Source of the DNA: Tyzzerella sp. An114
Lineage (GTDB): Bacteria; Bacillota; Clostridia; Lachnospirales; Anaerotignaceae
DNA: 64,000 nucleotides
Direction: 5' to 3'
Assembly: GCF_002161055.1 (NCBI RefSeq)
Contig: NZ_NFLT01000001.1
Span: 124,001 to 188,000 of the forward strand
Notes under the pieces: model-generated
Told to the model about the DNA's origin: nothing
Databases searched by the model: none
Seen by the model: only the letters and a program-made list of their open reading frames with translations
Shown: positions 43,172 through 62,636 of the stretch, one piece after another
Layout of the letters: each line of letters begins with the position of its first letter
Position numbering within the stretch: position 1 is the stretch's first letter
Made by a program: the position numbers and the translations under genes

Positions 43172-43221
43172 AAATAATGTCAATTAATCAATCAATCAAT
43201 TAATAATAAAACATAAAATCA

Positions 43222-43314
43222 AGAAACTCCCTACGTAGGTACTAACCTTACAGGTTCAATGAGTAAGAGGACAACACCTCACTCTCAGCTGATTTAATCA
43301 GCTCCCCAGTTCTG
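43222..43314 (-). promoter_or_regulatory. TPP riboswitch (THI element) controlling thiSFGH-tenI
   Basis: Minus strand contains the conserved core in order: CTGGGGAGCT, GCTGAGAGTGAGG, the P3 region with CTCATTGAACCTG, and GGTTAGTACCTACGTAGGGAG. The pyrimidine-sensing GCTGAGA and the pyrophosphate-sensing ACCTG...TACGTAGG elements are intact. With the terminator at 43135 it should shut off the operon when thiamine pyrophosphate is abundant. Confidence 0.96.
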
Positions 43315-43340
43315 AATAAATATTCAATTTTTATAAGGTG

Positions 43341-46067: not shown

Positions 46068-47765
46068 TTAGTCTTCATCCTGAAGAGCATAATATCCTTC
46101 TTCTCCAGTTCTTATTTTGATTACATTTTCAACATCATATATAAATATCTTTCCGTCTCCAATGTGACCAGTAAATAATACCTGTTTTGCCACATCGACA
46201 ACAGTTTCAACAGGAATTTTACATACAACCATTTCAAGTTTTACTTTAGGTCTTAAAGCGACATCAACTTCAATACCACGATAATATTCGCTGTTACCTT
46301 TCTGCATACCAAAACCTAAAACCTGTGTAACAGTTAAACCTGTAATTCCTATTGCTGAAAGAGCATTTTTAAGGGCTTCAAATTTACTCTGATTTGCGAT
46401 AATAACGATTTTTGTAAGTTTTTCATTTTCAGCATTTTCAATTCTTTCAGCAGGTACATGCTGTACTGTGACAGCCTCCTCTGTTGTAACTTTTCTTTCT
46501 TTTTTGAAATCTGCACCAAATACACTTTCATTAGGTATCATAAATCCAGCATAGCTACTTGCAAGATTATGTTCTTTAATATCAAGACCAAGGATTTCTT
46601 CTTCTTCCGAAACACGAAGACCTATTGTATGTTTAAGTACCTGGAAAACTATTGTCATTGTTATAATAACCCATACAGCAACAGAGAAAACACCTATAAT
46701 CTGTATTCTTAAGAAATCAATTCCGCCGCCATATAAAAGACCACCGTCAACAGCAAAAATACCTGTAAGAATTGTACCTGTTGCACCACACATACCATGA
46801 ACACCAACAGCACCAACAGGGTCGTCAACTTTTAAAACTTTATCAATAAACTCAATACCAAATACAACTACAAAACCTGCAATAATACCTATAACAGCAG
46901 AACCACCTATTGAAACCATATCACAGCCGGCTGTTATAGCAACAAGACCTGCAAGAGTACCGTTTAAAGTCATTGAAACGTCAGGTTTTTTGTATCTAAC
47001 CCATGTTATAATCATAGCTGTTATTGAAGCAACTGCTGCTGACATATTTGTAGTAACGAATATTGAACCCATTTTTATAAGAGTTTCGTCACCTTCTGCA
47101 CTTACTGTTGAACAACCATTAAATCCAAACCAGCAGAACCATAATATAAACACACCAAGAGCAGCAATAGTAAGGTTATGACCTAAAATTGCTTTAGGTT
47201 TTCCGTCTTTTGTATATTTTCCAATACGAGGTCCAAGAGTTTTTGCACCTAAAAAGGCTGCTATACCACCAACCATATGAACGGCTGTTGAACCGGCAAA
47301 ATCATGGAAGCCAAGCTGTGCAAGCCAGCCACCGCCCCAAATCCAATGACCTGAAACAGGATATATAATTGCACTTATTATAAAACTATATATACAGTAT
47401 GATGAAAATTTTGTTCTCTCTGCCATTGCGCCAGAAACTATTGTTGCTGCTGTGGCACAGAAAACAGTCTGAAATATAAGAAAGGCGAAAAATGGGACAC
47501 CTGCCGGTGTGATTGATGAGTAATCTCCTCTTGTAAATAAATCAATACCACCAAAGAATGATGATGATGAACCAAACATTATTCCGAAACCTGTAATCCA
47601 GAATATTGGAGTACCAATACTAAAGTCCATAAGGTTTTTCATTATGATATTTCCGGCATTTTTAGCTCTTGTTAAACCTGCCTCGAGTATTGCAAAGCCT
47701 GCCTGCATAAAGAATACAAGGGCGGCTCCAACCAATACCCAAATGGTATTTACTGATGAAAACAT
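46068..47765 (-). CDS. amtB: Ammonium transporter fused to a P-II (GlnB/GlnK) regulatory domain
   Basis: 565 residues. The Amt channel (about 1-405, eleven helices) contains the conserved DFAGSTAVHMVGG and WFCWFGFNG segments. After a 40-residue linker, a complete P-II domain spans about 449-565: KIVIIANQSKFEALKNAL, GFGMQKG, T-loop EYYRGIEVDV, LRPKVKLEMVV, TGHIGDGKIFIYDVE and IRTGEEG. The uridylylation Tyr51 of GlnB aligns with Val here, so control is probably by ATP/ADP and 2-oxoglutarate alone. Normally GlnK blocks AmtB as a separate trimer; here it is covalently supplied. Downstream of glnN, behind an attenuator-like terminator. Confidence 0.95.
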   Translation of the reverse strand: MFSSVNTIWVLVGAALVFFMQAGFAILEAGLTRAKNAGNIIMKNLMDFSIGTPIFWITGFGIMFGSSSSFFGGIDLFTRGDYSSITPAGVPFFAFLIFQTVFCATAATIVSGAMAERTKFSSYCIYSFIISAIIYPVSGHWIWGGGWLAQLGFHDFAGSTAVHMVGGIAAFLGAKTLGPRIGKYTKDGKPKAILGHNLTIAALGVFILWFCWFGFNGCSTVSAEGDETLIKMGSIFVTTNMSAAVASITAMIITWVRYKKPDVSMTLNGTLAGLVAITAGCDMVSIGGSAVIGIIAGFVVVFGIEFIDKVLKVDDPVGAVGVHGMCGATGTILTGIFAVDGGLLYGGGIDFLRIQIIGVFSVAVWVIITMTIVFQVLKHTIGLRVSEEEEILGLDIKEHNLASSYAGFMIPNESVFGADFKKERKVTTEEAVTVQHVPAERIENAENEKLTKIVIIANQSKFEALKNALSAIGITGLTVTQVLGFGMQKGNSEYYRGIEVDVALRPKVKLEMVVCKIPVETVVDVAKQVLFTGHIGDGKIFIYDVENVIKIRTGEEGYYALQDED

Positions 47766-47877: not shown

Positions 47878-49971
47878 TTAAAGTATGCTGAATAAAAGTT
47901 CGCCGTATCTTGGATATGGCCAATATTCATCGCCAACAATAACCTCTGCTCTGTCAGCAACAGCTCTAAGCTCATTCATAGCAGGTATAACTACATCTTT
48001 ATAGTAATCCGCCTCTGCTTGCATTCCATCTGTATCCTTAACACCTATTACAGCACTTTCAAGTTTTTCTAAGTTATCAATTATTGAAGATGTAATGTAT
48101 GAAAGTTCCTCAACAATAGATTTTTCTTTACATTTTGATATGTCAATTCCTATACCCTGTTTCGCTGTAAGTGTTTCTGTAATACTGTTTGTATATTTCA
48201 TTACTGCTGGAAGAATGCTTCTTCTTGCCATTTCAATCATTGTAAGAGCTTCAATATTTAAAGTCTTGCAGTAATTTTCCAAAAGTATTTCATAACGTGA
48301 GTTAATCTCAACCTCTGTAAATATATTATGCTTTGTAAAAAGTTTTATGCTTTTTTCTGATACAAAATAAGGAAGTGCGTCTGGTGTTGTTCTAAGATTG
48401 AGAAGTCCTCTTCTCTCTGCTTCTTTCTGCCACTCATCGCTGTAACCATCGCCATTAAATATAATTCTCTTATGTTCTATAATTGTTTTCTTTATAAGAG
48501 CTTTTAATGATTTATTAAAGTCAGGTGCTTTTTCAAGTTCATCGGCAAACTGGCTTAAAACTTCTGCAACTATTGTATTTAAAACAATATTAGGTCCTGA
48601 AACAGAAACTGTTGAACCAAGCATACGGAATTCAAATTTATTTCCTGTGAAAGCAAAAGGTGAAGTTCTGTTTCTATCTGTTGTATCTTTAAAGAAATGA
48701 GGAAGTACATGGACACCAATTTCCATTTCTTCTTTATCTTTCTGTTCAAATTCTGTACCCTTTTCAATAGAGTCTAAAACCTGCTGAAGTTCATCACCAA
48801 CAAACATTGAAACAATAGCTGGAGGTGCTTCGTTAGCTCCAAGACGGTGGTCGTTTCCTGCACCAACAACAGAAACTCTTAAAAGGTCCTGATAATCATC
48901 AACAGCTTTTATAACTGCTGCAAGGAAAAGTAAAAACTGTGCATTTTTCTTTGGAGACTCACCTGGCTCAAGAAGGTTTACACCTGTATCTGTTGATATT
49001 GACCAGTTATTATGCTTTCCACTTCCGTTAACTCCTGCAAATGGTTTTTCATGTAATAAACAAGCCATACCATGTTTCTGTGCAACCTTTTTAAGCATTT
49101 CCATTGTAAGCTGGTTGTGGTCTGATGCAATATTTGTTGTTGAGAATATTGGTGCAAGTTCGTGCTGTGCTGGAGCAACTTCATTATGCTCTGTCTTAGC
49201 AAGTATACCAAGTTTCCAAAGTTCTTCATTAAGGTCTTTCATAAAAGCCTTTACTCTTGGTTTTATTGTTCCAAAATAGTGGTCTTCAAGTTCCTGACCT
49301 TTTGGAGGTTTAGCACCAAAAAGAGTTCTTCCACAATATATAAGGTCTTTTCTCTGTTTGTATAATTCTTCATCAATAAGGAAATACTCCTGCTCTGGTC
49401 CTACTGTTGTATTAACTTTTGTTGTAGTAGTATCTCCAAAAAGTCTTAAAATTCTTAATGCCTGTTCATTAATAACTTCCATAGAACGAAGAAGTGGAGT
49501 TTTCTTGTCAAGAGCCTCTCCGCTGTAAGAACAGAAAGCAGTTGGAATACAGAGTGTATCTTCTTTTATAAAAGCGTAGCTTGTTGGGTCCCAAGCTGTA
49601 TATCCTCTAGCCTCAAATGTAGCTCTAAGTCCACCAGAAGGGAAACTTGAAGCGTCCGGTTCACCTTTTATAAGTTCTTTTCCGGAAAACTCCATAATAA
49701 CTCTGCCGTCTTCACTTGGAGATATGAAACTGTCATGTTTTTCTGCTGTAACTCCTGTCATAGGCTGGAACCAGTGAGTAAAATGTGTTACTTCTCTTTC
49801 AATAGCCCAATCCTTCATAGCATTTGCAACTACATTTGCAACTTCTCTATCAAGAGGTTTTCCCTCTGCTATGCTTTTCTTCATAAGTTTATAAGTAGCT
49901 TTTGGAAGTCTCTCTTTCATTGCCTGTTCATCAAAAACCATACTTCCGAAAATTTCAGGAACACTTGTCAT
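47878..49971 (-). CDS. glnN: Glutamine synthetase type III
   Basis: 697 residues, the typical size of the GlnN branch (type I is about 440). Family blocks: [20 protein letters not shown] near residue 82, [48 protein letters not shown], and GSGKHNNWS in the catalytic half. It forms glutamine from glutamate, ammonia and ATP. AGGGGGA precedes the ATG. Transcribed from a consensus promoter through a hexaloop/terminator leader. A second, type I synthetase is encoded at 55165. Confidence 0.97.
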
Positions 49972-50083
49972 ATTATTTCCCCCTTAAAATTAAAGTATTA
50001 TTTCTTTAGTTTTTTAAACGTTCTTTTAAATATTTTATCCTTTGTACCTTAAAAATATTTCATCTTTTGTAATAAATATAATA

Positions 50084-50132
50084 AACAAAAAAGGCACCGT
50101 GGACTATAAAAAATATAATCCACAGCGCCTTT
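50084..50132 (-). terminator. Leader terminator (attenuator) of glnN
   Basis: Minus strand AAAGGCGCTGTGGA-TTATA pairs with TATAGTCCACGGTGCCTTT, ending in TTTTTTG. It stands between the promoter at 50150 and the glnN start, about 110 bases upstream of the ATG, so it can only act as an attenuator. Confidence 0.92.
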
Positions 50133-50137
50133 GCTGT
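50122..50137 (-). promoter_or_regulatory. ANTAR-type hexaloop hairpin in the glnN leader
   Basis: Minus strand ACAGC-AAAGGC-GCTGT: perfect 5-bp stem, six-base loop with A1 and G4. The loop and 3' strand form the left arm of the terminator at 50084, so folding of this hairpin prevents termination. It begins about five bases from the predicted transcript start, leaving no room for a second upstream hexaloop. Confidence 0.72.
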
Positions 50138-50149
50138 TTTATGCAGTTG

Positions 50150-50178
50150 ATTATATGACCACAAAAATGAAAAGTCAA
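50150..50178 (-). promoter_or_regulatory. Sigma-A promoter of glnN
   Basis: Minus strand TTGACT (50178-50173), 17-base spacer, TATAAT (50155-50150). Predicted start near 50142. Confidence 0.88.
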
Positions 50179-50297
50179 TATTTTTTTTACTAATTTTTTT
50201 ATTTTACCAAAAATGTATATTTAAAATGTATTTTTTAGAAAACACTTGTAATATATTTACAATAAGAAATCTTTATATTTTCAAAGCCATCAAACCG

Positions 50298-50327
50298 TTG
50301 ACACAAGGGCAAAACTGATAGTATAAT
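50298..50327 (+). promoter_or_regulatory. Sigma-A promoter of the split glutamate synthase operon
   Basis: TTGACA (50298-50303), 18-base spacer, TATAAT (50322-50327): both boxes at full consensus. Predicted start near 50334, two bases before the hexaloop hairpin. Confidence 0.92.
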
Positions 50328-50335
50328 GCTTTCAT

Positions 50336-50351
50336 CGAACAAAGACGTTCG
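50336..50351 (+). promoter_or_regulatory. ANTAR-type hexaloop hairpin in the glutamate synthase leader
   Basis: CGAAC-AAAGAC-GTTCG: perfect 5-bp stem with a six-base loop, A at position 1 and G at 4. The 3' strand and last loop bases form the left arm of the terminator at 50345. It is the first structure in the predicted transcript. Confidence 0.72.
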
Positions 50352-50400
50352 TCACTCACGGTATATTTGTATGTGTTTGGCGGACGTTTTTCTGTTTTTT
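50345..50400 (+). terminator. Leader terminator (attenuator) of the glutamate synthase operon
   Basis: ACGTTCGTC (50345-50353) pairs with GGCGGACGT (50379-50387), two G-T wobbles, followed by a long T-rich run. It lies 40 bases before the first gene, hence an attenuator competing with the hexaloop hairpin. Confidence 0.88.
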
Positions 50401-50439
50401 TATTAAAAAATACTCTTAAATATTAAGGAGGTTTTGATT

Positions 50440-51534
50440 ATGTTGCTTAAAGAAGGACAAACAAGAATACCTTCCGGCTGTGCTATATCTGGTATATTCG
50501 CAAAAGACGGAAAAAGGATTTCTGGTGAGTCAATAATAAAATCCATATCAACTATGCATGACCGTTCAAACGGTCTTGGAGGAGGTTTTGCAGGATACGG
50601 AATATATCCTGAATATAAAGACTCCTATGCTTTCCATATATTTTATGATGATATTGAAGCAAGAGAAAAATGTGAAAGATTTCTTGACAGGCATTTTGAT
50701 ATAGTAAACCTTTCAAAAATACCAACAAGAAAAAATCCAAGAATTACAAATGAACCTTTAATTTGGAGATACTTCTTAAATCCTCTCCCAACAAAACTTG
50801 CAGACAGTCAGCTTGATGAGAAAGAATACATTGCAAGATGTTGTATAAGAATAAACACTCAGATAAACGGAGCTTATGTATTTTCAAGTGGAAAAAACAT
50901 GGGTATATTTAAGGCAGTTGGATTTCCTGAAGATGTAGGAGATTTTTACAGACTTGAAGAATATTCCGGATACTGTTGGACAGCTCACGGAAGATATCCA
51001 ACAAATACACCAGGTTGGTGGGGCGGTGCTCACCCATTTGCAATGCTTGACTATTCAATAGTACACAACGGAGAGATTTCTTCTTATGATGCCAACAGAA
51101 GATATATTGAAATGTTTGGTTACAAATGTTCTCTCCTTACAGATACAGAGGTTATAACATACATAATAGACTTTTTAAATAGAAAGAAAAAACTTACTCT
51201 TGAGGAGGTTGCCTCTGTTATAGCTGCTCCATTCTGGTCAACAATAAATCATATGCCTGAAAAAGAGAGAGAAAAATACACTTATTTAAGAAAAGCATTT
51301 TCAAGCCTTCTTATAACAGGTCCTTTCTCAATACTTTTAGGATTTGAAGGCGGTATGATGGCACTTAATGACAGACTTAAACTTAGAAGTATGGTTGCAG
51401 CCGAAAAAGACAATATGTTCTATGTTGCTAGTGAAGAATGTGCCATAAGAATAATAGAGCCTAACCCTGATAAGGTTTGGGCAGCTAAAGGCGGAGAGCC
51501 TATAATAGTAACTCTTGAGGGAGGTGCAAAATAA
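50440..51534 (+). CDS. Glutamate synthase glutaminase subunit (stand-alone class II amidotransferase domain)
   Basis: 364 residues from the ATG at 50440; the TTG six bases upstream is only one base from AAGGAGG and is not credible. The nucleophile is probably C14 (SGCAISGIF), so a 13-residue propeptide must be removed. Other Ntn-amidotransferase marks are WTAHGRYPTNTPGWWGGAHPF, VHNGEISSYDANRRY and LLTDTEVITY. It releases ammonia from glutamine and passes it to the FMN subunit at 51534. It corresponds to the N-terminal domain of GltB, here split as in archaeal-type glutamate synthase. The stop overlaps the next start (TAATG). Confidence 0.9.
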   Translation: MLLKEGQTRIPSGCAISGIFAKDGKRISGESIIKSISTMHDRSNGLGGGFAGYGIYPEYKDSYAFHIFYDDIEAREKCERFLDRHFDIVNLSKIPTRKNPRITNEPLIWRYFLNPLPTKLADSQLDEKEYIARCCIRINTQINGAYVFSSGKNMGIFKAVGFPEDVGDFYRLEEYSGYCWTAHGRYPTNTPGWWGGAHPFAMLDYSIVHNGEISSYDANRRYIEMFGYKCSLLTDTEVITYIIDFLNRKKKLTLEEVASVIAAPFWSTINHMPEKEREKYTYLRKAFSSLLITGPFSILLGFEGGMMALNDRLKLRSMVAAEKDNMFYVASEECAIRIIEPNPDKVWAAKGGEPIIVTLEGGAK

Positions 51535-53039
51535 TGGCATTAAATTTTTTATATCCTGATTATGAAGTTGTAAGAAATTTTGATAAATGTATAAACTGTC
51601 GTCTCTGTGAAAAACAGTGTGCCAATGAAGTTCACAGTTTTAATGGCGATTTAAAGAAAATGGTTGCAGATGACAGTAAATGTGTAAACTGTCATAGATG
51701 TGTTGCTGTCTGTCCAACTAGAGCTTTAAAAATAGTTAAAACAGACCATACATTCAAAGAAAACACAAACTGGACAGGAAGAACAATAGCTGAAATTTAC
51801 AGACAGGCAGGAAGTGGCGGTGTTTTACTTTCATCAATGGGAAATCCTAAGCCATTACCTGTTTATTGGGACAGAATGTTAATAAATGCGTCACAGGTTA
51901 CAAACCCACCTATTGACCCATTGAGAGAGCCTATGGAAACAAAAGTTACTTTAGGAAAAAGTCCTGATAAAATAGAAAGAGACAGTGAGGGAAATTTAAT
52001 AAACAATTTAGGTCCTAGCATAGAGCTTGATGTACCTATTCTCTTTTCTGCCATGTCCTATGGTTCAATAAGCTACAATGCCCATGAAAGCCTTGCAAGA
52101 GCCGCTGAAAAACTGGGAATACTCTACAACACAGGTGAAGGTGGTCTTCATGAGGATTTCTATAAATATGGTAAAAACACAATAGTTCAGGTTGCTTCCG
52201 GTCGTTTTGGAGTTCATAAAGATTTCCTTGAAGCTGGATGTGCAATAGAAATTAAAATGGGTCAAGGTGCAAAACCAGGTATAGGTGGACATCTTCCTGG
52301 AGGAAAAGTTTTGGAAGATATATCAAAAACACGTATGATACCAATCGGTTCAGATGCTATATCTCCAGCACCTCATCATGATATTTATTCAATAGAAGAC
52401 CTTAGACAATTAGTTTATTCATTAAAAGAGGCGACAGAATACAAAAAACCTGTTATAGTAAAGATAGCAGCTGTTCATAATGTGGCTGCCATCGCAAGCG
52501 GTATTGCCAGAAGTGGTGCTGATATCATAGCTATTGACGGGTTCAGAGGAGGTACTGGTGCTGCACCTACAAGAATACGTGATAACGTGGGAATACCTAT
52601 TGAACTTGCCCTTGCAAGTGTTGACCAAAGACTTAGAGAAGAAGGCATACGTGAAAACGTATCTATAATAGTAGGAGGAAGTATAAGAAGCAGTGCTGAC
52701 GTTGTAAAAGCTATTGCTCTTGGTGCTGATGCCTGCTATATAGGAACAGCTGCCCTTCTTGCTCTTGGTTGTCATCTCTGTCGAAGCTGTCAGCTTGGAA
52801 AATGTAACTGGGGTATTGCAACACAGAGAGAAGACCTTGTAAAACGTCTCAATCCTGATGAAGGTTGTGAGAGACTTGTAAATCTTGTAAAATCTTGGGA
52901 ACATGAAATAAAAGAGATTATGGGAGGAATGGGCATAAATTCAATAGAAGCACTTAAAGGAAATAGACTTATGTTAAGGGGAATAGGTCTTACAGAAAAA
53001 GAACTTTCCATACTGGGAATAATGCATGCGGGGGAATAA
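51534..53039 (+). CDS. Glutamate synthase FMN/iron-sulfur subunit (split GltB central domain)
   Basis: 501 residues. The N-terminus has two [4Fe-4S] motifs, C19-x2-C22-x2-C25-x3-C29 and C50-x2-C53-x2-C56-x3-C60. The FMN TIM-barrel follows with FSAMSYGSISYNAHESLARAA, NTGEGGLHEDFYKYG, IKMGQGAKPGIGGHLPGGKV and DGFRGGTGAAPTRIRDN. Near the C-terminus CHLCRSCQLGKC provides the [3Fe-4S] site. It reduces 2-oxoglutarate plus ammonia to glutamate. Ferredoxin-type clusters suggest electrons come from ferredoxin or another donor, since no GltD gene is present here. One-base overlap with the amidotransferase gene. Confidence 0.94.
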   Translation: MALNFLYPDYEVVRNFDKCINCRLCEKQCANEVHSFNGDLKKMVADDSKCVNCHRCVAVCPTRALKIVKTDHTFKENTNWTGRTIAEIYRQAGSGGVLLSSMGNPKPLPVYWDRMLINASQVTNPPIDPLREPMETKVTLGKSPDKIERDSEGNLINNLGPSIELDVPILFSAMSYGSISYNAHESLARAAEKLGILYNTGEGGLHEDFYKYGKNTIVQVASGRFGVHKDFLEAGCAIEIKMGQGAKPGIGGHLPGGKVLEDISKTRMIPIGSDAISPAPHHDIYSIEDLRQLVYSLKEATEYKKPVIVKIAAVHNVAAIASGIARSGADIIAIDGFRGGTGAAPTRIRDNVGIPIELALASVDQRLREEGIRENVSIIVGGSIRSSADVVKAIALGADACYIGTAALLALGCHLCRSCQLGKCNWGIATQREDLVKRLNPDEGCERLVNLVKSWEHEIKEIMGGMGINSIEALKGNRLMLRGIGLTEKELSILGIMHAGE

Positions 53040-53094: not shown

Positions 53095-54369
53095 ATGTTA
53101 ACATCAATAGTAGGAATTAACTGGGGAGACGAAGGAAAAGGAAGAATGGTAGACCTTCTTTCTCAGGATTATGATATAGTTTCTCGTTATCAGGGAGGAA
53201 ATAACGCAGGACATACTGTTGTAAATGATTTAGGAAAATTTATATTAAATCTTTTACCATCAGGAATACTTCGTGAGGAAGTTGTAAATGTAATGGGTCC
53301 TGGAATGGTTATAGACCTTGAACATTTAAGCGGAGAGATAAAGAGACTTACAGACGCAGGTGTTAAAATTTCTCCAAAAAATCTTAAAATAAGCAACAAA
53401 GCTATTGTATGTATGCCATATCACAGACAGCAGGATATTCTTGAAGAAGACCGTCTTGGTGATGCAAAATATGGTTCAACAAGACGTGGAATTTCTCCTG
53501 TTTATGGTGATAAATACATGAAAAAATGTATCAGAATGGGTGACCTTCTTCACAGAGAAACATACAAAAAAGAGCTTGAAAGAATTCTTGAGTGGAAAAA
53601 CCTTACAATAACAAAGGTTTATGGTGCTGAAGAAGTAAAATTTGAAGATATGTTAAGCTGGCTTGATAAATACTCAGCAGAATTTAAAGATTATATCTGT
53701 GACACAAGCATTTACCTTAACAATGCAGTAAAAGAAGGTAAAAAAGTTATGTTTGAAGCTCAGCTTGGAGCATTAAGAGATATTGATTATGGTATTTATC
53801 CATACACTTCATCATCTTCAACAATAGCTGCATATGCTCCTATTGGTGCTGGTGTTCCTAACCTTAAACTTACAAACTCTATCGGTATTATGAAAGCATA
53901 CTCAACTTGTGTAGGTGAAGGACCTTTCACAGCTGAAATGTTTGGAGAAGAAGCTGAAAAACTTAGAGAAGCTGGTGGAGAATATGGTGCTGCAACAGGA
54001 AGACCAAGACGTGTAGGTCCATTTGATGTTCCTGCATCTCGCTATGGTGTACTTGTTCAGGGTTGTGATGAACTTGCTCTCACAAAACTTGATGTACTTT
54101 CATACCTTGAGGAAATTCCTGTTTGTGTTGCTTATGATGTTGAAGGAGAACTTACAAAAGATTTCCCATACTCAACAGAGCTTGATAAAGCAAAACCTGT
54201 TGTTGAGTATGTAAAAGGTTGGAACTGTGATATAAGCAAATGCAGAAAACCAGAAGACCTTCCAAAAGAAGCTCTTGACTATATTAAATACATTGAAAAA
54301 GCAGTAGATTCAAAAATCAAATACGTTTCAGTAGGTGCTGCAAGAGACGAGTACATTGTAATGTACTAA
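53095..54369 (+). CDS. purA: Adenylosuccinate synthetase
   Basis: 424 residues. GTP-dependent condensation of IMP and aspartate, first step to AMP. Signatures: GINWGDEGKGRMVD (variant of GxQWGDEGKGK), GGNNAGHTVV, STRRGISPVYGDK, and ATGRPRRVGPFD. It separates the second and third glutamate synthase genes, with AAGGAGG and a 55-base gap before it and 49 bases after. The placement links purine synthesis to nitrogen control, but the reaction does not belong to glutamate synthesis. No separate promoter or terminator is visible. Confidence 0.97.
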   Translation: MLTSIVGINWGDEGKGRMVDLLSQDYDIVSRYQGGNNAGHTVVNDLGKFILNLLPSGILREEVVNVMGPGMVIDLEHLSGEIKRLTDAGVKISPKNLKISNKAIVCMPYHRQQDILEEDRLGDAKYGSTRRGISPVYGDKYMKKCIRMGDLLHRETYKKELERILEWKNLTITKVYGAEEVKFEDMLSWLDKYSAEFKDYICDTSIYLNNAVKEGKKVMFEAQLGALRDIDYGIYPYTSSSSTIAAYAPIGAGVPNLKLTNSIGIMKAYSTCVGEGPFTAEMFGEEAEKLREAGGEYGAATGRPRRVGPFDVPASRYGVLVQGCDELALTKLDVLSYLEEIPVCVAYDVEGELTKDFPYSTELDKAKPVVEYVKGWNCDISKCRKPEDLPKEALDYIKYIEKAVDSKIKYVSVGAARDEYIVMY

Positions 54370-54418
54370 AATTTATTTTTAAAAAATTATAATCTTTAAT
54401 TGCCGGGGGGTGCATACA

Positions 54419-55141
54419 TTGAATATATATGCAGGAATGAAACATTTTAAAGACTTAAATGATGAAATAAGAAACTGCACAGATAAAGACATAATAATAG
54501 ACAACTGTATAGGTCAAAGATATATCGGAAGCGGTCTTAGGGATAAAAACATTGTTATAAATGGGACTCCCGGAAATGCTTTAGGTTCATATCTTGACGG
54601 CTGTACTGTACGTGTTTACGGAAACACACAGGAAGCAACAGGCGACACAATGAACAGTGGAACAATATATATACATGGTTCATCTGGAGACGCCACAGGA
54701 TACGCTATGAGAGGCGGTAAAATATTTATAGAGAAAGATGCTGGCTATCGCACAGGAATTCATATAAAAGCCTATAAAGAGCATAAACCAGCAATAGTAA
54801 TAGGAGGCTCTGCCGGAAGTTTCTTGGGAGAATACCAAGCTGGAGGAACAATAGTTGTTCTTGGACTTAACACAAACTCTAAAACTCCTGTTGGAAGATT
54901 TTGTGGTACAGGAATGCACGGTGGTAAAATATTTATACGCTGTGATGAACTTCCTTTTGACCTTCCTGTACAGATTTCAGCTAAAAAAGCTGATAAATCT
55001 GATATAGATGAAATTCTCCCTCTCATAGATGAATACTGTGAAGAATTTAATTTTGATAAAAATATTATATTTACAAAGGATTTTTATGTTTTAACAGCAG
55101 ATACAAAAAATCCTTACAAACAGCTTTATACAAGAAACTGA
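54419..55141 (+). CDS. Glutamate synthase GXGXG-domain subunit (split GltB C-terminal domain)
   Basis: About 240 residues. A right-handed beta-helix pattern with repeated Gly-x-x-Gly turns: INGTPGNALGSYLDGCTV, YGNTQEATGDTMNSGTIYIHG, ATGYAMRGGKIFIEKDAG and GGSAGSFLGEYQAGG. This is the GXGXG domain of GltB or of formylmethanofuran dehydrogenase subunit C; context makes GltB clear. In-frame GTG at 54410 lies inside the GGGGGGTG ribosome site, so TTG at 54419-54421, six bases downstream, is preferred. It completes the split glutamate synthase. Confidence 0.88.
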   Translation: MNIYAGMKHFKDLNDEIRNCTDKDIIIDNCIGQRYIGSGLRDKNIVINGTPGNALGSYLDGCTVRVYGNTQEATGDTMNSGTIYIHGSSGDATGYAMRGGKIFIEKDAGYRTGIHIKAYKEHKPAIVIGGSAGSFLGEYQAGGTIVVLGLNTNSKTPVGRFCGTGMHGGKIFIRCDELPFDLPVQISAKKADKSDIDEILPLIDEYCEEFNFDKNIIFTKDFYVLTADTKNPYKQLYTRN

Positions 55142-55164: not shown

Positions 55165-56484
55165 ATGAACTATACCGTATCCGAGGTATTGCGTTTTGTA
55201 GAAGAAAATGATGTTAAATTTATAAGACTTGCATTCTGTGATATTTTCGGCGTTCAGAAAAACATATCAATAATGCCTTCAGAACTTCCAAGGGCATTTG
55301 ATACAGGTATATCATTTGATGCCTCATCAATAGACGGTTTTATGAATATAGAGGAGTCAGACCTTTTTTTAGTGCCTGACCCCTCTACCCTTTCAATACT
55401 CCCTTGGAGACCATCTAGGGGCCGTGTTGTTCGTTTCTTCTGTCATATAAAATACCCTGACGGAAGAAATTTTGAAGGAGACGGAAGATATATATTAAAA
55501 ACCGTTCTTGATGAACTTAAAGAAATGAAATATGTATGTAAAGTTGGAACAGAATGTGAATTTTATCTTTTTGAGAATGATGAAGAAGGATTTCCAACAA
55601 AAATTCCTTTTGATAGAGGAACATATTTTGATATAGCTCCTGTTGACAAAGGTGAAAATATACGACGTGAAATATGTTTAACTCTTGAAGAAATGAATAT
55701 CACTCCTGAAAGCTCTCATCATGAATCAGGTCCAGGACAAAATGAAATAGATTTCAAATACAGTGATGCTTTAACAGCAGCAGATAATCTTGTATCATTC
55801 AAATCTGTTGTAAAATCCGTAGCTGCAAGAAATGGACTTTTTGCTTCATTTATGCCAAAACCTCTTGAAAATGAAAGCGGAAGTGGTCTTCATATAAATC
55901 TTTCACTTTTCAAAAACGGTCTTAATATATTTAAGACAGAAATAAACGAACATTCTTTGGCAGCAGAAAGCTTTATTGCTGGTATACTTAATAGAATTGA
56001 AGATATAACATTATTTTTAAATCCTTTGACAAATTCATACAATCGTTTTGGAAAATTTGAAGCTCCAGAGTATGTGAGTTGGTCTCACAAAAACCGTTCA
56101 CAGCTTATAAGAATACCTTCTGCAAAGGGTGAACACAGCAGAATGGAACTTCGCTCTCCTGACCCAGCTTGCAATCCTTATATTGCTTTAGCTCTAATAA
56201 TAAAGGCAGGAATTGAAGGTATTAAAAATAATGCTACTTTAGAACCTCCACAGGACTTAAATCTCTATAAAGCTCCAAAAGAACTTTCACAAATATTCAG
56301 AAAATTACCTAATAATCTTGAAAGTGCTATTGATAAAGCTTGTGAAAGTGATTTTATAAAATCTGTATTGCCAAATAAAACATTTGATAAATATGTTTCA
56401 ATAAAAAGAAATGAACTTGAAAAATATTCACTTACAGAAGATAAAAACGTCTTTGAAACAGAAAATTATTTTTATAAAATATAA
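55165..56484 (+). CDS. glnA: Glutamine synthetase type I
   Basis: 439 residues, typical of GSI-alpha as in Gram-positives. Visible blocks: DASSIDGF (variant of DGSSIxGF), TECEFYLF, HHESGPGQNEID, FMPKPLENESGSGLHINLS, NRSQLIRIP with the arginine of the glutamate site, and RMELRSPDPACNPYIALAL. No adenylylation-site pattern is evident. It follows the GXGXG gene by 24 bases (GAGGTG) and precedes the ANTAR gene by 31, so it could be an enzyme, a sensor for the ANTAR protein, or both, as GS is for GlnR in Bacillus. Confidence 0.95.
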   Translation: MNYTVSEVLRFVEENDVKFIRLAFCDIFGVQKNISIMPSELPRAFDTGISFDASSIDGFMNIEESDLFLVPDPSTLSILPWRPSRGRVVRFFCHIKYPDGRNFEGDGRYILKTVLDELKEMKYVCKVGTECEFYLFENDEEGFPTKIPFDRGTYFDIAPVDKGENIRREICLTLEEMNITPESSHHESGPGQNEIDFKYSDALTAADNLVSFKSVVKSVAARNGLFASFMPKPLENESGSGLHINLSLFKNGLNIFKTEINEHSLAAESFIAGILNRIEDITLFLNPLTNSYNRFGKFEAPEYVSWSHKNRSQLIRIPSAKGEHSRMELRSPDPACNPYIALALIIKAGIEGIKNNATLEPPQDLNLYKAPKELSQIFRKLPNNLESAIDKACESDFIKSVLPNKTFDKYVSIKRNELEKYSLTEDKNVFETENYFYKI

Positions 56485-56515: not shown

Positions 56516-57097
56516 TTGAGTAATGGAGGAAGTGCTCTTATTGTTTCGGGAACAGAAAAAGGAAGCAATTTAATAGAAGACCTTATGAGAAATACATCAG
56601 GTATATCCGACTTTTTTTATACAAGAAACGGCTCTGAGGCAAGAAGAATGCTTATTGAAAATAGTTATGACATTATAATTATAAACACTCCTCTTGCTGA
56701 TGAATTTGGTCACGACCTTGCACTCTACGCTTCAACAAACACCGTTTCTGGACTTATACTTATAGTAAAGTCGGAAATTTATGAGGAAGTCTGTGACAGA
56801 GTTGAAGACTATGGAATATTAGTATTATCAAAACCTTTAAGCAGACAAACTTTTTATAGTGCAGTTAAACTTGTATCTGCAACACAAAAAAGACTTCTTA
56901 TTCTTGAAAAAGAAAATATGAAACTTCAAAAGAAGATAGAAGAAATACGTCTTGTAGACAGAGCAAAATGTGTTCTTATACAATATCTTAACATGACAGA
57001 GGCTGAGGCTCATCGCTATATAGAAAAACAGGCAATGGATATGAGAAAAACAAAAAAAACTATTGCTGAAAATATTCTTAATACTTATGACAGCTGA
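56516..57097 (+). CDS. ANTAR-domain RNA-binding antiterminator with a pseudo-receiver domain
   Basis: 193 residues, TTG start with AGAGGTG seven bases upstream. Residues 6-120 have a response-regulator fold, but the acidic pair is replaced (S11, G12) and the phospho-acceptor position is N57 in IIIINTPL; only K106 is kept. A coiled coil (about 121-147) leads to the ANTAR domain (about 138-193) with RAKCVLIQYLNMTEAEAHRYIEKQAMD, including the conserved Ala and aromatic positions. ANTAR proteins such as EutV and NasT bind hexaloop hairpins and block terminators. Hexaloops upstream of glnN, amtB and the glutamate synthase operon are likely targets. Confidence 0.93.
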   Translation: MSNGGSALIVSGTEKGSNLIEDLMRNTSGISDFFYTRNGSEARRMLIENSYDIIIINTPLADEFGHDLALYASTNTVSGLILIVKSEIYEEVCDRVEDYGILVLSKPLSRQTFYSAVKLVSATQKRLLILEKENMKLQKKIEEIRLVDRAKCVLIQYLNMTEAEAHRYIEKQAMDMRKTKKTIAENILNTYDS

Positions 57098-57305: not shown

Positions 57306-57387
57306 GTAAAAAATAAGTTAATATTAATAAGCTTGTAACTTTATAAAGAAACAAACAAGCTTTGATTTATTTTTATATAAATTCGGG

Positions 57388-57449
57388 GCTTTTGTCCCTT
57401 ATTTATTATGGGTAAAAGCGGAGAATTTTTTTAAACTCCGTTTTTTTTT
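57388..57449 (+). promoter_or_regulatory. Attenuator in the carA leader
   Basis: An intrinsic terminator, CGGAG (57419-57423), A/T loop, CTCCG followed by nine T, ends 70 bases before carA. Just upstream, GCTTTTGTCC (from 57388) can pair with GGGTAAAAGC (57411-57420), whose last bases overlap the terminator stem, an antiterminator arrangement. A first hairpin AAGCTTGT/ACAAGCTT lies at about 57329-57363. I found no PyrR-type binding loop, purine riboswitch core or ANTAR hexaloop here. Confidence 0.7.
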
Positions 57450-57516
57450 GGGCATATTGTAGCATATTCAATGCCTATTATTCTACAATTTCACTTGAGT
57501 AATCGGAGGAATTCAG

Positions 57517-58590
57517 ATGGAAAAATTATACTTAGTACTTGAAAACGGACAGATTTTTGAAGGTAAATCTTTTGGTGCCGAAGGAGAAATCACTGGTGAG
57601 ATAGTTTTCTCTACTGCTATGACAGGTTATCTTGAAACTATCACAGACCCTAGCTACTTTGGACAGATTGTTGTTCAAACTTTCCCATTAATTGGAAATT
57701 ATGGTGTTATACCTTCCGACTTCGAAAGCGATAGACCATATTTAAAAGCATACGTTGTACGTGAATGGTGTCAGGAACCTTCTAATTTCCGTTGTGAGGG
57801 CAATCTTGACACTTTTTTAAAGGATATGAACGTTATAGGCCTTTATGATATAGATACACGTCAGCTTACAAAAATCATAAGAGAATACGGTGTTATGAAT
57901 GCCAAAATAACAAAATCTATTGATAATATAGATGAAATCATTAAAGAGCTTAAAGGTTACAAAATTGTTGATGCTGTAAAAGGTGCAACTTGTAAAGAAA
58001 TGAAAGTATTTAATGAAAATGGTGAAAAACACGTTGTTCTTATGGACTTTGGCGAAAAAGCAAATATTCAACGTGAACTTATTAAGAGAGGTTGTAAAGT
58101 AACAGTTGTTCCTTCATACACAAAGGCTTCTGAAATACTTGCAATGAACCCAGATGGAATAATGCTCTCAAACGGCCCTGGAGACCCTGCTGAAAACGTT
58201 GAAGTTATCGAGGAGATTAAAGCCCTTGTTGAGTCAAAAACACCTATTTTTGGTATCTGTTTAGGTCATCAGCTTACAGCTTTATCACAGGGTGCTACAA
58301 CAAGCAAACTTAAATATGGTCATCGTGGTGGAAACCAGCCTGTAAAAGAAACTGCAACAGGTAGAGTTTATATAACAAGCCAGAACCACGGTTATGCTGT
58401 AAACGCTGACTCACTTCCTGAAAATGCTGAATTAAGCTGGGTAAATGTTAATGATGGAACTTGCGAAGGTGTTTCTTATAAAAATGCTCCTGTATATACT
58501 GTACAGTTCCACCCAGAAGCTTGTGGTGGTCCACAGGACACAATGTTCTTATTTGATAAATTTATTAATGTTATGGGAGGTACAAAATAA
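57517..58590 (+). CDS. carA: Carbamoyl phosphate synthase small subunit (glutaminase)
   Basis: 357 residues. N-terminal CPSase small-chain domain with GEIVFSTAMTGYLETITDPSY, and a class I amidotransferase domain with the nucleophile in GICLGHQL (about 246-253), the His-Glu partners in VQFHPEA near the end, and SNGPGDP. It supplies ammonia from glutamine to CarB through the inter-subunit tunnel for pyrimidine and arginine synthesis. GGAGG precedes the ATG. The stop overlaps the carB start by one base (TAATG), so the subunits are made in a coupled way. Confidence 0.98.
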   Translation: MEKLYLVLENGQIFEGKSFGAEGEITGEIVFSTAMTGYLETITDPSYFGQIVVQTFPLIGNYGVIPSDFESDRPYLKAYVVREWCQEPSNFRCEGNLDTFLKDMNVIGLYDIDTRQLTKIIREYGVMNAKITKSIDNIDEIIKELKGYKIVDAVKGATCKEMKVFNENGEKHVVLMDFGEKANIQRELIKRGCKVTVVPSYTKASEILAMNPDGIMLSNGPGDPAENVEVIEEIKALVESKTPIFGICLGHQLTALSQGATTSKLKYGHRGGNQPVKETATGRVYITSQNHGYAVNADSLPENAELSWVNVNDGTCEGVSYKNAPVYTVQFHPEACGGPQDTMFLFDKFINVMGGTK

Positions 58591-61500
58591 TGCCACTTAA
58601 AAATGATATTAAAAAGGTACTTGTTATCGGTTCAGGTCCTATTATAATCGGACAAGCGGCAGAATTTGACTATGCCGGAACACAGGCCTGCCGTGCCCTT
58701 AGAGAAGAAGGTCTTGAAGTTGTTCTTGTAAACAGTAACCCTGCAACAATTATGACTGACAAGGCTATGGCTGATAAAATTTATATCGAGCCTTTAACAA
58801 TAGATGTATTAAAAAGAATTATAAAGAAAGAAAAACCAGACAGCATTCTTTCAACCCTTGGTGGACAGACTGGTCTTACACTTTCAATGCAGCTTGCAAA
58901 AGAAGGTTTCCTTGAAGAAAACAATGTAAAACTTCTCGGTGCAAATCCTCTTACTATTGATAAAGCTGAAGACAGACAGATGTTCAAAGATACAATGCTT
59001 GAAATCGGAGAACCTGTTATACCTTCAGAAGTTGTAAACACTCTTGAAGATGCAATAGCATTTACAAACAAAATAGGATACCCTGTTATAATTCGTCCTG
59101 CCTTCACTCTTGGCGGTACTGGCGGCGGTATCTGTTATAATGAAGAAGAACTCAGAGAGATTGCTGCAAATGGTCTTCGTCTCTCCCCTATTACTCAGAT
59201 ACTTGTTGAAAAATGTATTTCAGGTTGGAAAGAAATCGAGTTTGAAGTTATCCGTGACAGCAAAGGAAACTGTATAACAGTATGTTCTATGGAAAACTTT
59301 GACCCTGTTGGAGTTCACACTGGAGACTCTGTTGTTATTGCTCCTGCTGTAACACTTTCAGACAAAGAATATCAGATGCTTCGTTCTGCATCATTAAATA
59401 TCGTTTCTGCTCTCGGTGTTGAAGGTGGTTGTAACTGTCAGTTTGCTTTAGACCCTAACAGCTTTGAGTATGCAGTAATTGAGGTTAACCCTCGTGTATC
59501 TCGTTCTTCTGCTCTTGCTTCAAAAGCAACAGGATACCCTATTGCAAAAGTTGCTGCAAAAATAGCTATCGGTTATACACTTGACGAAATCAAAAACGCT
59601 GTTACAGGAAAAACATACGCTTGTTTCGAGCCTGCTCTCGACTATGTTGTTGTTAAACTTCCAAAATGGCCATTTGATAAATTCGTTTATGCAAAACGTA
59701 CTCTTGGTACACAGATGAAAGCTACTGGAGAGGTTATGGCTATCGGTCCAAACTTTGAAATGGCTATAATAAAAGCTGTAAGAGGTGCTGAAATATCTCT
59801 TGACAGTTTAAATCTTCCTAAACTTGCAGAGCTTAGCTATGATGAAATAAAAAATAAAATCAGTGTATGTGACGACGAAAGACTCTTTGTTGTATTTGAA
59901 GCAATAAAGAGAGGCATTTCTCTTGACTACATCCACGACATAACAAAAATTGACCACTGGTTCTTAAATAAATTAAAACACCTTGTTGAGTATGAAAAAG
60001 AGATTGCAGAAAACACTCTCACAGAAGAACTCTACATTAAAGGTAAAAAATATGGATATCCTGATAAAGTTATTGAAAGAATTTCAGGACAGAAAGTTGA
60101 AAACCCACGCACAGCTGTATTCAAAATGGTTGACACTTGTGCTGCTGAGTTTAAGGCTGAAACACCATACTTCTACTCAACATATGACACAGAAAATGAA
60201 GCTGCTGAATTTATTGCAGAAAGAAATTCTGATAAAAAGACAGTTATAGTATTTGGTTCTGGTCCAATAAGAATTGGTCAGGGTATCGAGTTCGACTATG
60301 CTTCAGTTCACTGTGTATGGTCACTTAAAAAAGCTGGATATGAAGTTGTTATTGCAAATAACAACCCTGAAACTGTATCAACAGACTTTGACACAGCTGA
60401 CAGACTTTACTTCGAGCCACTTACACCAGAAGATGTTATGAATATAATCAGAACAGAAAAACCTTATGGTGTTGTAGTTGCTTTCGGTGGACAGACAGCT
60501 ATCAAACTTACAAAATTCCTTGAAAGTCAGGGAATAAACATTCTTGGTACTCCAGCAGACAGCATTGACGCTGCTGAAGACAGAGAACGTTTCGATGAGC
60601 TTCTTGAAAGCCTTGGAATTAAACGTCCTTCTGGTTACACTGTTATGACAACAGAAGAAGCATTAAAAGTTGCAAATGAACTTCAGTATCCTGTTCTTAT
60701 GCGTCCTTCTTATGTATTAGGTGGACAGAACATGATTATCGCTTTCAGTGATGAAGATATAATTGAATACATGAAAATTATTCTTGCTCACGAAATCGAA
60801 AATCCTATACTTATTGATAAATACCTTATGGGTGTTGAAATCGAAGTTGACGCTATATGTGACGGAGAAGACATTCTCATTCCTGGTATTATGGAACACG
60901 TTGAGAGAGCCGGAATTCACTCTGGAGACTCAATAGCTGTATATCCTGCTTGGAATGTAAGCGGAGAACTTACAGAAAAAATTATTGATTATACAAAGAA
61001 CCTTGCTATCTCATTAAAGACAAAAGGTCTTGTAAATATTCAGTATGTAATATATGAAAATGAAATATATGTTATCGAGGTAAATCCACGTTCTTCAAGA
61101 ACAATTCCTTATATAAGCAAAGTTACAGGTGTTCCTATGGTAGACCTTGCAACAGCTTGTATGCTTGGAGCAAAACTTAAAGACCTTGGATATGGCACAG
61201 GACTTTATAAAACACCTCCATATGTTGCTGTAAAAGTTCCTGTATTCTCTTTTGAAAAACTTATTGACGTAGACGTTCAGCTTGGACCTGAAATGAAATC
61301 AACAGGTGAGGTTCTTGGTATAGGTACAACTATGGGAGAAGCTCTCTACAAAGGTCTCATTGCTGCCGGATATAAGATGAAGAAAAACGGTGCTATGTTT
61401 ATCACTGTAAGAAACAGCGATAAAGGCGAAATCGTTGATATAGCTAAAAAATATGCTGCTCTTGGATTTGAGCTTTACTCAACAAAAGGTACAGCAAAAA

Positions 61501-62636
61501 TATTAAATGACGCTGGACTTAATGTAACACCTGTAAACAAAATCCATGAAGGAAGCGAAAATACAAAAACTCTCCTTGAAAGTGGAAAAATCAACTACAT
61601 TATTTCCACATCATCAAAGGGAAGACTTCCAAGCCGTGACAGCGTTAAAATACGTCGTATAGCTGTTGAGCATGCTATCCCATGTCTCACATCTCTTGAC
61701 ACAGCAGACGCTCTTGCAAACTGTCTTATGAGCCGTTTCTCACAGAATAATATTGAGCTTATAGACATCAATAATATGCGTGAAGAAAAACTTGCTCTTA
61801 ACTTTACAAAAATGCACGGTACAGGAAACGACTTCATTTACTTCAACTGTATGAATGATGATAATATGATTGAAAGCCCTGAGTCTTTAGCAGTTACACT
61901 TTCAAACAGACATTTCAGCATTGGTGGTGAAGGTGTAGTTCTTATATGTAAATCAAATGTTGCAGATGTAAGAATGAAACTTTACAACCTTGACGGTACA
62001 GAAGAATTTATGGGTGGTAACGCTATAAGATGTCTTGCAAAATATGTTTATGACAATGGTATTGTAAATAAAACAGACCTTACAGTAGAAACATTAAGCG
62101 GTGTAAGACACGTTAAACTCTTTACACAGAACGGAAAAGCAGTTTCCGCTACTGTTGAAATGGGTAAAATAGTTCTTGACCCTAAACTTGTTCCTGTAAA
62201 TCTTGAGGGAGAAACTATTATAAATCGCCCTGTTGTAATAAACAGAATACCTTATAACATTACATGTTTAAATCTTGGAAATCCTCATTGTGTAGTATTC
62301 TGTGACAACCTTGATGCAATAGATGTTGAAAAGATTGGATATGAATTTGAATACAATCCACTCTTCCCTGAAAGAGTTACAACAGAATTTGTACAGGTTA
62401 TAAATAAAACAACAATACGAATGAGAGTATGGGAAAGAGGAAGCGGTGAAACATGGGCTTGTGGTACAGGTGCTTGTGTTGCAGCAGTTGCTTCTGTTCT
62501 TAATGGTTACTGCCACGAAAATAAAGAAATCACTGTTAAACAAAAAGGTGGCGACCTTCTCATAAGCAATATCGATGGTACAATATATCTTTCTGGAAAA
62601 GCTGAAAAGGTATTTGATGGTACAATAGAAATCTAA
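58590..62636 (+). CDS. carB: Fusion of carbamoyl phosphate synthase large subunit (CarB) and diaminopimelate epimerase-like (DapF) domain
   Basis: 1348 residues in one uninterrupted frame. Residues 1-~1065 are a full CarB: first ATP-grasp half (GSGPIIIGQAAEFDYAGTQ), second half (GSGPIRIGQGIEFDYASVH), and a C-terminal MGS-like allosteric domain. From about 1068 a complete DapF fold follows (LNFTKMHGTGNDF, RHFSIGGEG, LNLGNPHCVVF, GSGETWACGTGAC). The second catalytic Cys is present (C1291), but the first, normally in MCGNG, is Gly (FMGGNAIRC, G1142). There is no ribosome site before the DapF part, so fusion is real at the DNA level. CarB activity is certain in outline; epimerase activity is doubtful. 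Confidence 0.96.
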   Translation: MPLKNDIKKVLVIGSGPIIIGQAAEFDYAGTQACRALREEGLEVVLVNSNPATIMTDKAMADKIYIEPLTIDVLKRIIKKEKPDSILSTLGGQTGLTLSMQLAKEGFLEENNVKLLGANPLTIDKAEDRQMFKDTMLEIGEPVIPSEVVNTLEDAIAFTNKIGYPVIIRPAFTLGGTGGGICYNEEELREIAANGLRLSPITQILVEKCISGWKEIEFEVIRDSKGNCITVCSMENFDPVGVHTGDSVVIAPAVTLSDKEYQMLRSASLNIVSALGVEGGCNCQFALDPNSFEYAVIEVNPRVSRSSALASKATGYPIAKVAAKIAIGYTLDEIKNAVTGKTYACFEPALDYVVVKLPKWPFDKFVYAKRTLGTQMKATGEVMAIGPNFEMAIIKAVRGAEISLDSLNLPKLAELSYDEIKNKISVCDDERLFVVFEAIKRGISLDYIHDITKIDHWFLNKLKHLVEYEKEIAENTLTEELYIKGKKYGYPDKVIERISGQKVENPRTAVFKMVDTCAAEFKAETPYFYSTYDTENEAAEFIAERNSDKKTVIVFGSGPIRIGQGIEFDYASVHCVWSLKKAGYEVVIANNNPETVSTDFDTADRLYFEPLTPEDVMNIIRTEKPYGVVVAFGGQTAIKLTKFLESQGINILGTPADSIDAAEDRERFDELLESLGIKRPSGYTVMTTEEALKVANELQYPVLMRPSYVLGGQNMIIAFSDEDIIEYMKIILAHEIENPILIDKYLMGVEIEVDAICDGEDILIPGIMEHVERAGIHSGDSIAVYPAWNVSGELTEKIIDYTKNLAISLKTKGLVNIQYVIYENEIYVIEVNPRSSRTIPYISKVTGVPMVDLATACMLGAKLKDLGYGTGLYKTPPYVAVKVPVFSFEKLIDVDVQLGPEMKSTGEVLGIGTTMGEALYKGLIAAGYKMKKNGAMFITVRNSDKGEIVDIAKKYAALGFELYSTKGTAKILNDAGLNVTPVNKIHEGSENTKTLLESGKINYIISTSSKGRLPSRDSVKIRRIAVEHAIPCLTSLDTADALANCLMSRFSQNNIELIDINNMREEKLALNFTKMHGTGNDFIYFNCMNDDNMIESPESLAVTLSNRHFSIGGEGVVLICKSNVADVRMKLYNLDGTEEFMGGNAIRCLAKYVYDNGIVNKTDLTVETLSGVRHVKLFTQNGKAVSATVEMGKIVLDPKLVPVNLEGETIINRPVVINRIPYNITCLNLGNPHCVVFCDNLDAIDVEKIGYEFEYNPLFPERVTTEFVQVINKTTIRMRVWERGSGETWACGTGACVAAVASVLNGYCHENKEITVKQKGGDLLISNIDGTIYLSGKAEKVFDGTIEI

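Follow-up and report, generated by a model that had tools for sequence, protein, structure and literature searches.

Putative single-hexaloop ANTAR attenuators before glutamate synthase and glutamine synthetase genes in clostridia

How might an ANTAR antiterminator control a leader that offers it a single, 5'-terminal hexaloop? To our knowledge, every characterised ANTAR attenuator uses two hairpins, P1 included. The question is raised by the window, a stretch of 64,000 nucleotides from Tyzzerella sp. An114, in which a split glutamate synthase (glt) operon begins with such a leader and ends with the gene of an ANTAR protein. In 2012 the protein dimer was seen as gripping two hexaloops, and ANTAR control of glutamate synthase was predicted with this dual motif (PMC3369931). 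In the EutV model of 2022 the dimer grips one hexaloop, P1 recruiting it near the polymerase in time; the structures of that year led to the proposal of a single hexaloop as minimal binding site and to a call for natural examples, which the authors expected at sites free of the time limit that transcription imposes.

Two divergent leaders and their genes

The glt operon runs from the GATase part of glutamate synthase through the FMN/ferredoxin part, purA, the GXGXG part and glnA, coding for a type I glutamine synthetase (GS), to the ANTAR gene:

50298-50327, plus strand: glt promoter TTGACA-18-TATAAT, consensus matches 12/12
50336-50351, plus strand: single hexaloop hairpin CGAAC-AAAGAC-GTTCG (A1, G4) of the glt leader, putative antiterminator
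50341-50406, plus strand: competing intrinsic terminator of the glt leader, 50341-50353 pairing with 50379-50391, U-rich tract to about 50406
50440-51534, plus strand: split glutamate synthase, glutamine amidotransferase part (ATG at 50440; Shine-Dalgarno AGGAGG at 50426-50431)
51534-53039, plus strand: split glutamate synthase, ferredoxin/FMN part (PF01645, 1.3e-139)
53095-54369, plus strand: adenylosuccinate synthetase (purA), inside the glt operon
54410-55141, plus strand: split glutamate synthase, GXGXG part (PF01493, 1.1e-29)
55165-56484, plus strand: type I glutamine synthetase (glnA)
56516-57097, plus strand: NitR-like ANTAR protein with a pseudo-receiver domain, last gene of the glt operon

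The gene purA lies within the split glutamate synthase operon in several related loci too.

The promoter of the original prediction can be read directly, with TTGACA at 50298-50303, an 18-nt spacer and TATAAT at 50322-50327, and it is the sole 12/12 sigma-70 match that a sequence scan returned over 8.8 kb. Direct reading likewise confirms the hairpin, whose strands CGAAC (50336-50340) and GTTCG (50347-50351) enclose the loop AAAGAC (50341-50346) with A1 and G4 as described. Transcription usually starts 6-8 nt after the -10 element. The stem begins 8 nt past that element and about 2 nt past the expected +1 (~50334); the claim that the hairpin follows within two bases thus holds relative to the expected +1, not relative to the -10 element, and given the usual start the hairpin would begin about 0-3 nt from the 5' end of the transcript. 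That its 3' strand is common to an intrinsic terminator is borne out: AAAGACGTTCGTC (50341-50353) pairs with GGCGGACGTTTTT (50379-50391), a U-rich tract comes next, and the 5' arm of the terminator is the hexaloop's own loop and 3' strand. The whole leader folds at -29.1 kcal/mol (z = -4.7, with 0/200 equally stable shuffles), the terminator alone at -21.1 kcal/mol vs -4.0 kcal/mol for the hexaloop hairpin alone. Rfam covariance models (T-box, glutamine riboswitch etc.) gave no credible match between 50250 and 50500, even at E values up to 10. A small open reading frame in the terminator loop (ATGTGTTTGGCGGAC...) was considered as a leader peptide and dropped by inspection, having no evident Shine-Dalgarno sequence.

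A leader of the same design, absent from the earlier account, lies on the opposite strand, in the same intergenic region:

50150-50178, minus strand: promoter of the glnN operon, TTGACT-17-TATAAT
50122-50137, minus strand: single hexaloop hairpin ACAGC-AAAGGC-GCTGT of the glnN leader, the genome's best model match (2.5e-8)
50083-50132, minus strand: terminator of the glnN leader, with loop and 3' strand in common with the hexaloop hairpin
47878-49971, minus strand: 697-aa glutamine synthetase, probably type III (glnN)
46068-47765, minus strand: ammonium transporter fused to P-II in a single polypeptide, downstream of glnN

Here TTGACT-17-TATAAT is followed, after 12 nt, by ACAGC-AAAGGC-GCTGT and then by the terminator with its U-tract. 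The naming of glnN draws on length, partial GS matches and conserved context, its scores being below the curated NCBIfam cut-offs; the amt-PII fusion scores 437 bits against TIGR00836, and its P-II part 104.9 bits. When the whole genome was searched with the RNA model of the element, the glt and glnN leaders were the only confident matches (E 2.5e-8 and 1.4e-5; the next at 0.077). Candidates at 0.077 and worse (loci L084-L096) were rejected as further regulon members: they are without the AAAGRC hairpin and resemble chance promoter matches.

One hexaloop or two in related leaders

The comparison covered 80 clostridial loci with a close ANTAR relative. Many of them contain the whole glt operon, and glnA lies directly upstream of the ANTAR gene in the window and in 68 of the 73 loci with enough upstream sequence. 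An unbiased set was formed by 32 glt leaders picked by orthology alone, blind to the hairpin. An A1/G4 hexaloop overlapping a terminator is present in 25 of these 32; in 22 it has at least five Watson-Crick pairs and stands directly behind the promoter (vs 0.07 in shuffles), and all six-nucleotide loops beside the promoter have A1 and G4 (22/22). Counting against the best explanation, the scan recognised no A1/G4 hexaloop overlapping a terminator in 7/32. One of these seven, L023, carries about 110 nt before the start codon a hexaloop GTTGTC, where position 1 is G and G4 is kept; this fits the view that G4 is what the protein contacts, the role of A1 being only to give the loop its shape.

A wider set of 57 leaders, preceding glt, glnN, glnA or other first genes, was selected by promoter, hairpin and terminator. 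Its loops are AAAGGC, AAAGAC, AAAGGT, AAGGGC, AATGGC and AACGGC. The spacing between promoter and hairpin is kept throughout, the nominal +1 falling 0-6 nt before the stem in 53/57. Hairpin and terminator are mutually exclusive in 57/57, as the selection rule demands, and in all 57 the terminator is the more stable structure (medians -26.7 vs -5.4 kcal/mol); a stabilising factor would therefore be needed for the hairpin to prevail. The glnA leaders of Clostridium (L020, L036) have the same hairpin, and model matches in other genomes precede glnN, glt, glnA and amt-PII genes.

The most obvious alternative is that these are ordinary dual-hexaloop targets in which the second hairpin was overlooked, either because transcription starts further upstream or because a short, 3-bp hexaloop lies downstream. 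Stems of 3 bp do suffice in published targets (PMC3369931). The scan for a second A1/G4 loop was accordingly run at this published minimum of 3 pairs, 2-25 nt upstream of the hairpin, and the numbers are about those of chance or below: 1/57 vs 2.2 expected, 0/43 vs 1.7 expected in a second, model-found set, and 1/25 vs 0.8 expected among the orthology-only glt leaders with the element. The single candidate sits between the promoter elements. The place that P1 would occupy is taken by consensus promoters in two different leader types. Upstream room is left in L012 and L033 (2/32 glt leaders), where the hairpin stands far behind the promoter. Downstream, there is a slight excess of A1/G4 hexaloops in the 57 leaders (5 vs 1.7 expected; 2/43 vs 1.4 expected in the second set), but three of the five are the terminator's own apical loop and none of the five is conserved. 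A scan of this kind, run on control ANTAR regions, detected dual hexaloops in L155 (a eut locus; linker 12 nt) and L162 (linker 11 nt) but in none of the seven others, and is thus not fully sensitive to dual motifs. Furthermore, the RNA model is blind to dual leaders because it includes the promoter beside the hairpin, a bias of which the orthology-only set is free. An overlooked partner appears, all in all, improbable: the leaders do not, beyond chance level, display the two hairpins, 2-25 nt apart, that define the dual motif, and the original prediction of a single, 5'-terminal hexaloop stands.

Tandem pairs of single-hexaloop units, spaced by 51-123 nt and with a terminator for either unit, were seen at L127 (1546-1690, plus strand), at L141 (1545-1700, plus strand) and probably at L009 (minus strand, from about 1757). 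They precede amt-PII genes in L127 and L141 and another gene in L009, and in their sequence they differ from the dual motif.

Could two hexaloops be brought together otherwise, an ANTAR dimer binding one on each of two nascent RNAs, such as the glnN and glt transcripts that diverge here? Divergent leader pairs, about 60-350 bp apart, do recur: they were found in the window (50122-50351) and in L002, L019, L021, L073, G017, G052, G056, G059, G081, G085, G089, G368, G417 and G553, and the flanking gene pairs vary between glnN|glt and glnN|glnA. In a EutV crystal, moreover, one dimer touches the hexaloops of two RNA molecules (PMC8934654). The EutV authors, arguing from kinetics, consider bridging in trans unlikely. 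The divergent pairs are accounted for by conserved gene order; the elements are not adjacent in most genomes that have at least two, and many genomes have one detected element. Bridging in trans is thus very unlikely.

Covariation, co-occurrence and the ANTAR protein

Alignment in relatives had been proposed as a check on the hairpin, and compensatory changes were indeed found. In 50 aligned leaders both sides change in 5/6 pairs of the stem; the covariation score is reached by 0/500 shuffles and is destroyed by sliding the partner strand; A1, G4 and the C-G pair closing the loop are the same in all 50. To be sure, the 50 were drawn from leaders selected for a hairpin of five or more pairs with A1/G4 in its loop; the percentage of pairing and the constancy of A1/G4 follow in part from that selection. 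Even so, one leader may have a wholly different stem type from another (TGAAC/GTTCA, ACAGC/GCTGT, AAGAC/GTCTT), an exchange that goes, as judged from the aligned sequences, beyond what the selection rule alone explains. The 5' strand of the hairpin lies outside the terminator, which is why this covariation argues for the antiterminator hairpin itself.

The element also tends to occur where there is an ANTAR protein. In a sample of 245 genomes of the order (element at E <= 0.003, ANTAR domain as PF03861), it was found in 100/199 ANTAR-positive vs 3/46 ANTAR-negative genomes, that is an odds ratio of 14 and p = 6e-9 with phylogeny ignored; the three element-positive genomes without ANTAR are weak matches. 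In a sample of 299 genomes of the phylum, phylogeny again ignored, ANTAR was present in 20 of the 23 model-positive genomes vs 149/299 overall, and in 15/15 of those with matches better than 1e-4. Three model-positive genomes in each sample gave no detectable ANTAR protein.

That the hairpin might be a 5'-end stabiliser or a by-product of the repeated arm of a terminator, the leader being a plain premature terminator or another factor's target, is scarcely probable: the hairpin alone is weak (median -5.4 kcal/mol) and pairing of AAA with the terminator's U-tract causes part of the loop conservation, but the 5' strand covaries although it is no part of the terminator, A1 and G4 persist in 22/22 promoter-side loops of the glt leaders, even in AATGGC, AACGGC and AATGAA/AATGGA (L004/L013), and the association with ANTAR proteins (p = 6e-9) would go unexplained.

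The genome's only detected ANTAR protein is encoded at 56516-57097 (the 56516 protein). Its C-terminal PF03861 domain scores 59.6 bits against a curated cut-off of 27.3, and its AlphaFold model (pLDDT 92) matches the full-length fold of EutV, free (Z 18.6) and RNA-bound (Z 18.2), over 187-190 residues of predicted structure. The phospho-acceptor Asp of the receiver domain is replaced by Asn, as an alignment with Rv1626 shows, and this Asn is invariant in 20 homologues; since the position normally phosphorylated is an invariant Asn, the domain is a pseudo-receiver like that of AmiR, and the protein lacks the acceptor expected of a phosphorylated REC-ANTAR response regulator of the EutV type. 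The residues by which EutV contacts RNA (PMC8934654) were mapped onto the protein through sequence alignments. K149, E160, M172 and R175, which contact the hexaloop, are identical; Arg stands in for K143 and K147 and, as in AmiR, His for Y164; I, E and D take the places of R142, R168 and N173, a point against the attenuator reading given below. From its sequence the 56516 protein belongs with the pseudo-receiver ANTAR proteins and resembles the published regulator NitR, and it probably grips the hairpin to prevent a premature stop of transcription.

A proposed mechanism and its place among known systems

We give a probability of nearly 0.8 to the reading that the glt and glnN leaders are attenuators of one design, bound by the operon's ANTAR protein at one hexaloop, without P1. 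It draws on the sequence of the leaders, on the conservation, covariation and mutually exclusive structures observed among relatives, on the observed co-occurrence and on the predicted protein fold. The transcript would start at or just before a hairpin of 5-7 bp with an AxxGxx hexaloop, the sole hexaloop corresponding to P2 of the EutV target and the recruitment hairpin P1 being missing. When no protein is present, the loop and 3' strand of the hexaloop would re-pair with downstream sequence into the far more stable terminator, and transcription would stop; the default state would be off because the terminator outcompetes the hairpin when nothing helps the latter. The ANTAR protein that the operon itself encodes, homologous to NitR and probably a dimer by way of its coiled coil, would bind the hexaloop with G4 flipped out and so hold the 5' arm of the terminator, letting RNA polymerase read through. 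The hairpin would form first, and the bound protein would then mask those parts of it, loop and 3' strand, on which the terminator depends. What separates the hairpin from the 3' arm of the terminator is about 37 nt (median) in glt/glnA-type leaders and 12-23 nt in those of the glnN type; a binding window as short as about 12-23 nt counts against this mechanism, P1 being thought to solve just such a problem of timing. Perhaps a higher affinity, a pause or the abundance of the protein would allow function without P1.

As for the signal, we infer that nitrogen limitation is the trigger, as reported for NitR of C. saccharobutylicum, and, more tentatively, suggest that the pseudo-receiver would sense it through contact with another protein, the likeliest being glutamine synthetase from the neighbouring gene. 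The latter is proposed as sensor because the usual phosphorylation residue is missing and glnA is a constant neighbour, and by analogy with AmiC-AmiR and with GS-TnrA of B. subtilis; a glutamine synthetase that signals the nitrogen status by direct contact is a tentative idea, with the odds somewhat against it. In C. thermocellum the ANTAR-containing GOGAT cluster and one of the glutamine synthetases, Clo1313_2303 (type III according to PMC9888227), change expression together.

AmiR of Pseudomonas aeruginosa is likewise a pseudo-receiver ANTAR protein, its G4-stacking residue being His. It is released by a partner protein encoded nearby, AmiC, whereas the partner proposed for the 56516 protein is glutamine synthetase, from gene adjacency only. 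The amiE leader of P. aeruginosa and the nasF leader (NasR) of Klebsiella oxytoca have, by published account, two hexaloops each (PMC3369931), the window's leaders one. With the EutV targets of the eut genes in Enterococcus faecalis, the window's leaders have in common the A1/G4 hexaloops and a 3' strand that also belongs to an intrinsic terminator (PMC3369931; PMC8934654), and the REC-coiled coil-ANTAR architecture of EutV is the full-length fold predicted for the 56516 protein. The differences are no less clear: EutV is phosphorylated by EutW, the 56516 protein having its invariant Asn in place of the acceptor Asp, and EutV targets consist of P1 and P2 joined by a short linker and both needed in vivo, whereas only P2 is found here, at the extreme 5' end. 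It counts against a mechanism with one hexaloop that at eutP of E. faecalis neither hairpin was dispensable in vivo, and that ANTARcc binding to a single stem-loop was much weaker (PMC3369931), although surface plasmon resonance gave similar affinities of EutV for isolated P1 and P2 (PMC8934654). The sequence of the window's leaders is consistent with the single-hexaloop 'minimal motif' (Walshe et al., 2022), binding being predicted.

The closest known system is NitR of C. saccharobutylicum, which by description induces GS/GOGAT genes through antitermination when nitrogen is limiting (PMC6316151, citing Stutz et al., 2007), where the glnA-nitR and gltAB cluster likewise has the ANTAR protein encoded with glnA. 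As far as that account goes, its RNA target is not described as a single hexaloop (PMC6316151), which is the feature of the window's leaders; the latter are most likely targets of the NitR homologue. ANTAR targets have also been predicted at glutamate synthase and nitrogen genes in Desulfotomaculum reducens (PMC3369931) and in actinobacteria (PMC8164766). They are alike in gene functions and in A1/G4 hexaloops, many with overlapping terminators, but both searches presupposed dual hairpins (in PMC8164766 with a curated linker of 2-25 nt), and single-hexaloop leaders would have been missed because the dual motif alone was searched. A literature search that did not cover the primary NitR paper found no description of single-hexaloop attenuators. 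Hence NitR, GS/GOGAT and the antitermination circuit are already known in outline; the new part, well supported by comparative sequence data, would be the single-hexaloop form of attenuator.

These leaders are best read as a variant of the ANTAR attenuator that is widespread, has a single hexaloop and lacks the upstream recruitment hairpin required by the current EutV model. The minimal form suggested by the original prediction is supported, and its arrangement is general in many clostridia; it is quite likely that a single 5'-end hexaloop overlapping a terminator, with no P1, forms a general class in clostridia with NitR-like ANTAR proteins, a few genomes having serial units. Single-hexaloop sites would then be found within ordinary attenuators, in many genomes, before core genes of ammonium assimilation, and the question why eut needs P1 would become directly testable with these leaders. 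They would further show why dual-motif searches undercount ANTAR regulons, and would supply a likely RNA target for the clostridial NitR circuit, gut species included.

Other features of the window deserve mention. A TPP riboswitch (RF00059, 68.2 bits) at 43211-43318 on the minus strand is its only Rfam match. Past the ANTAR gene, the carAB leader (57360-57480, plus strand) may be a separate attenuator, to judge by its small G+C hairpin (GGGGCTTTTGTCCC) and its T-rich stretches. Finally, a frame of 1348 aa at 58590-62636 on the plus strand combines a complete carbamoyl-phosphate synthase large chain with a C-terminal diaminopimelate epimerase domain, an unusual fusion.
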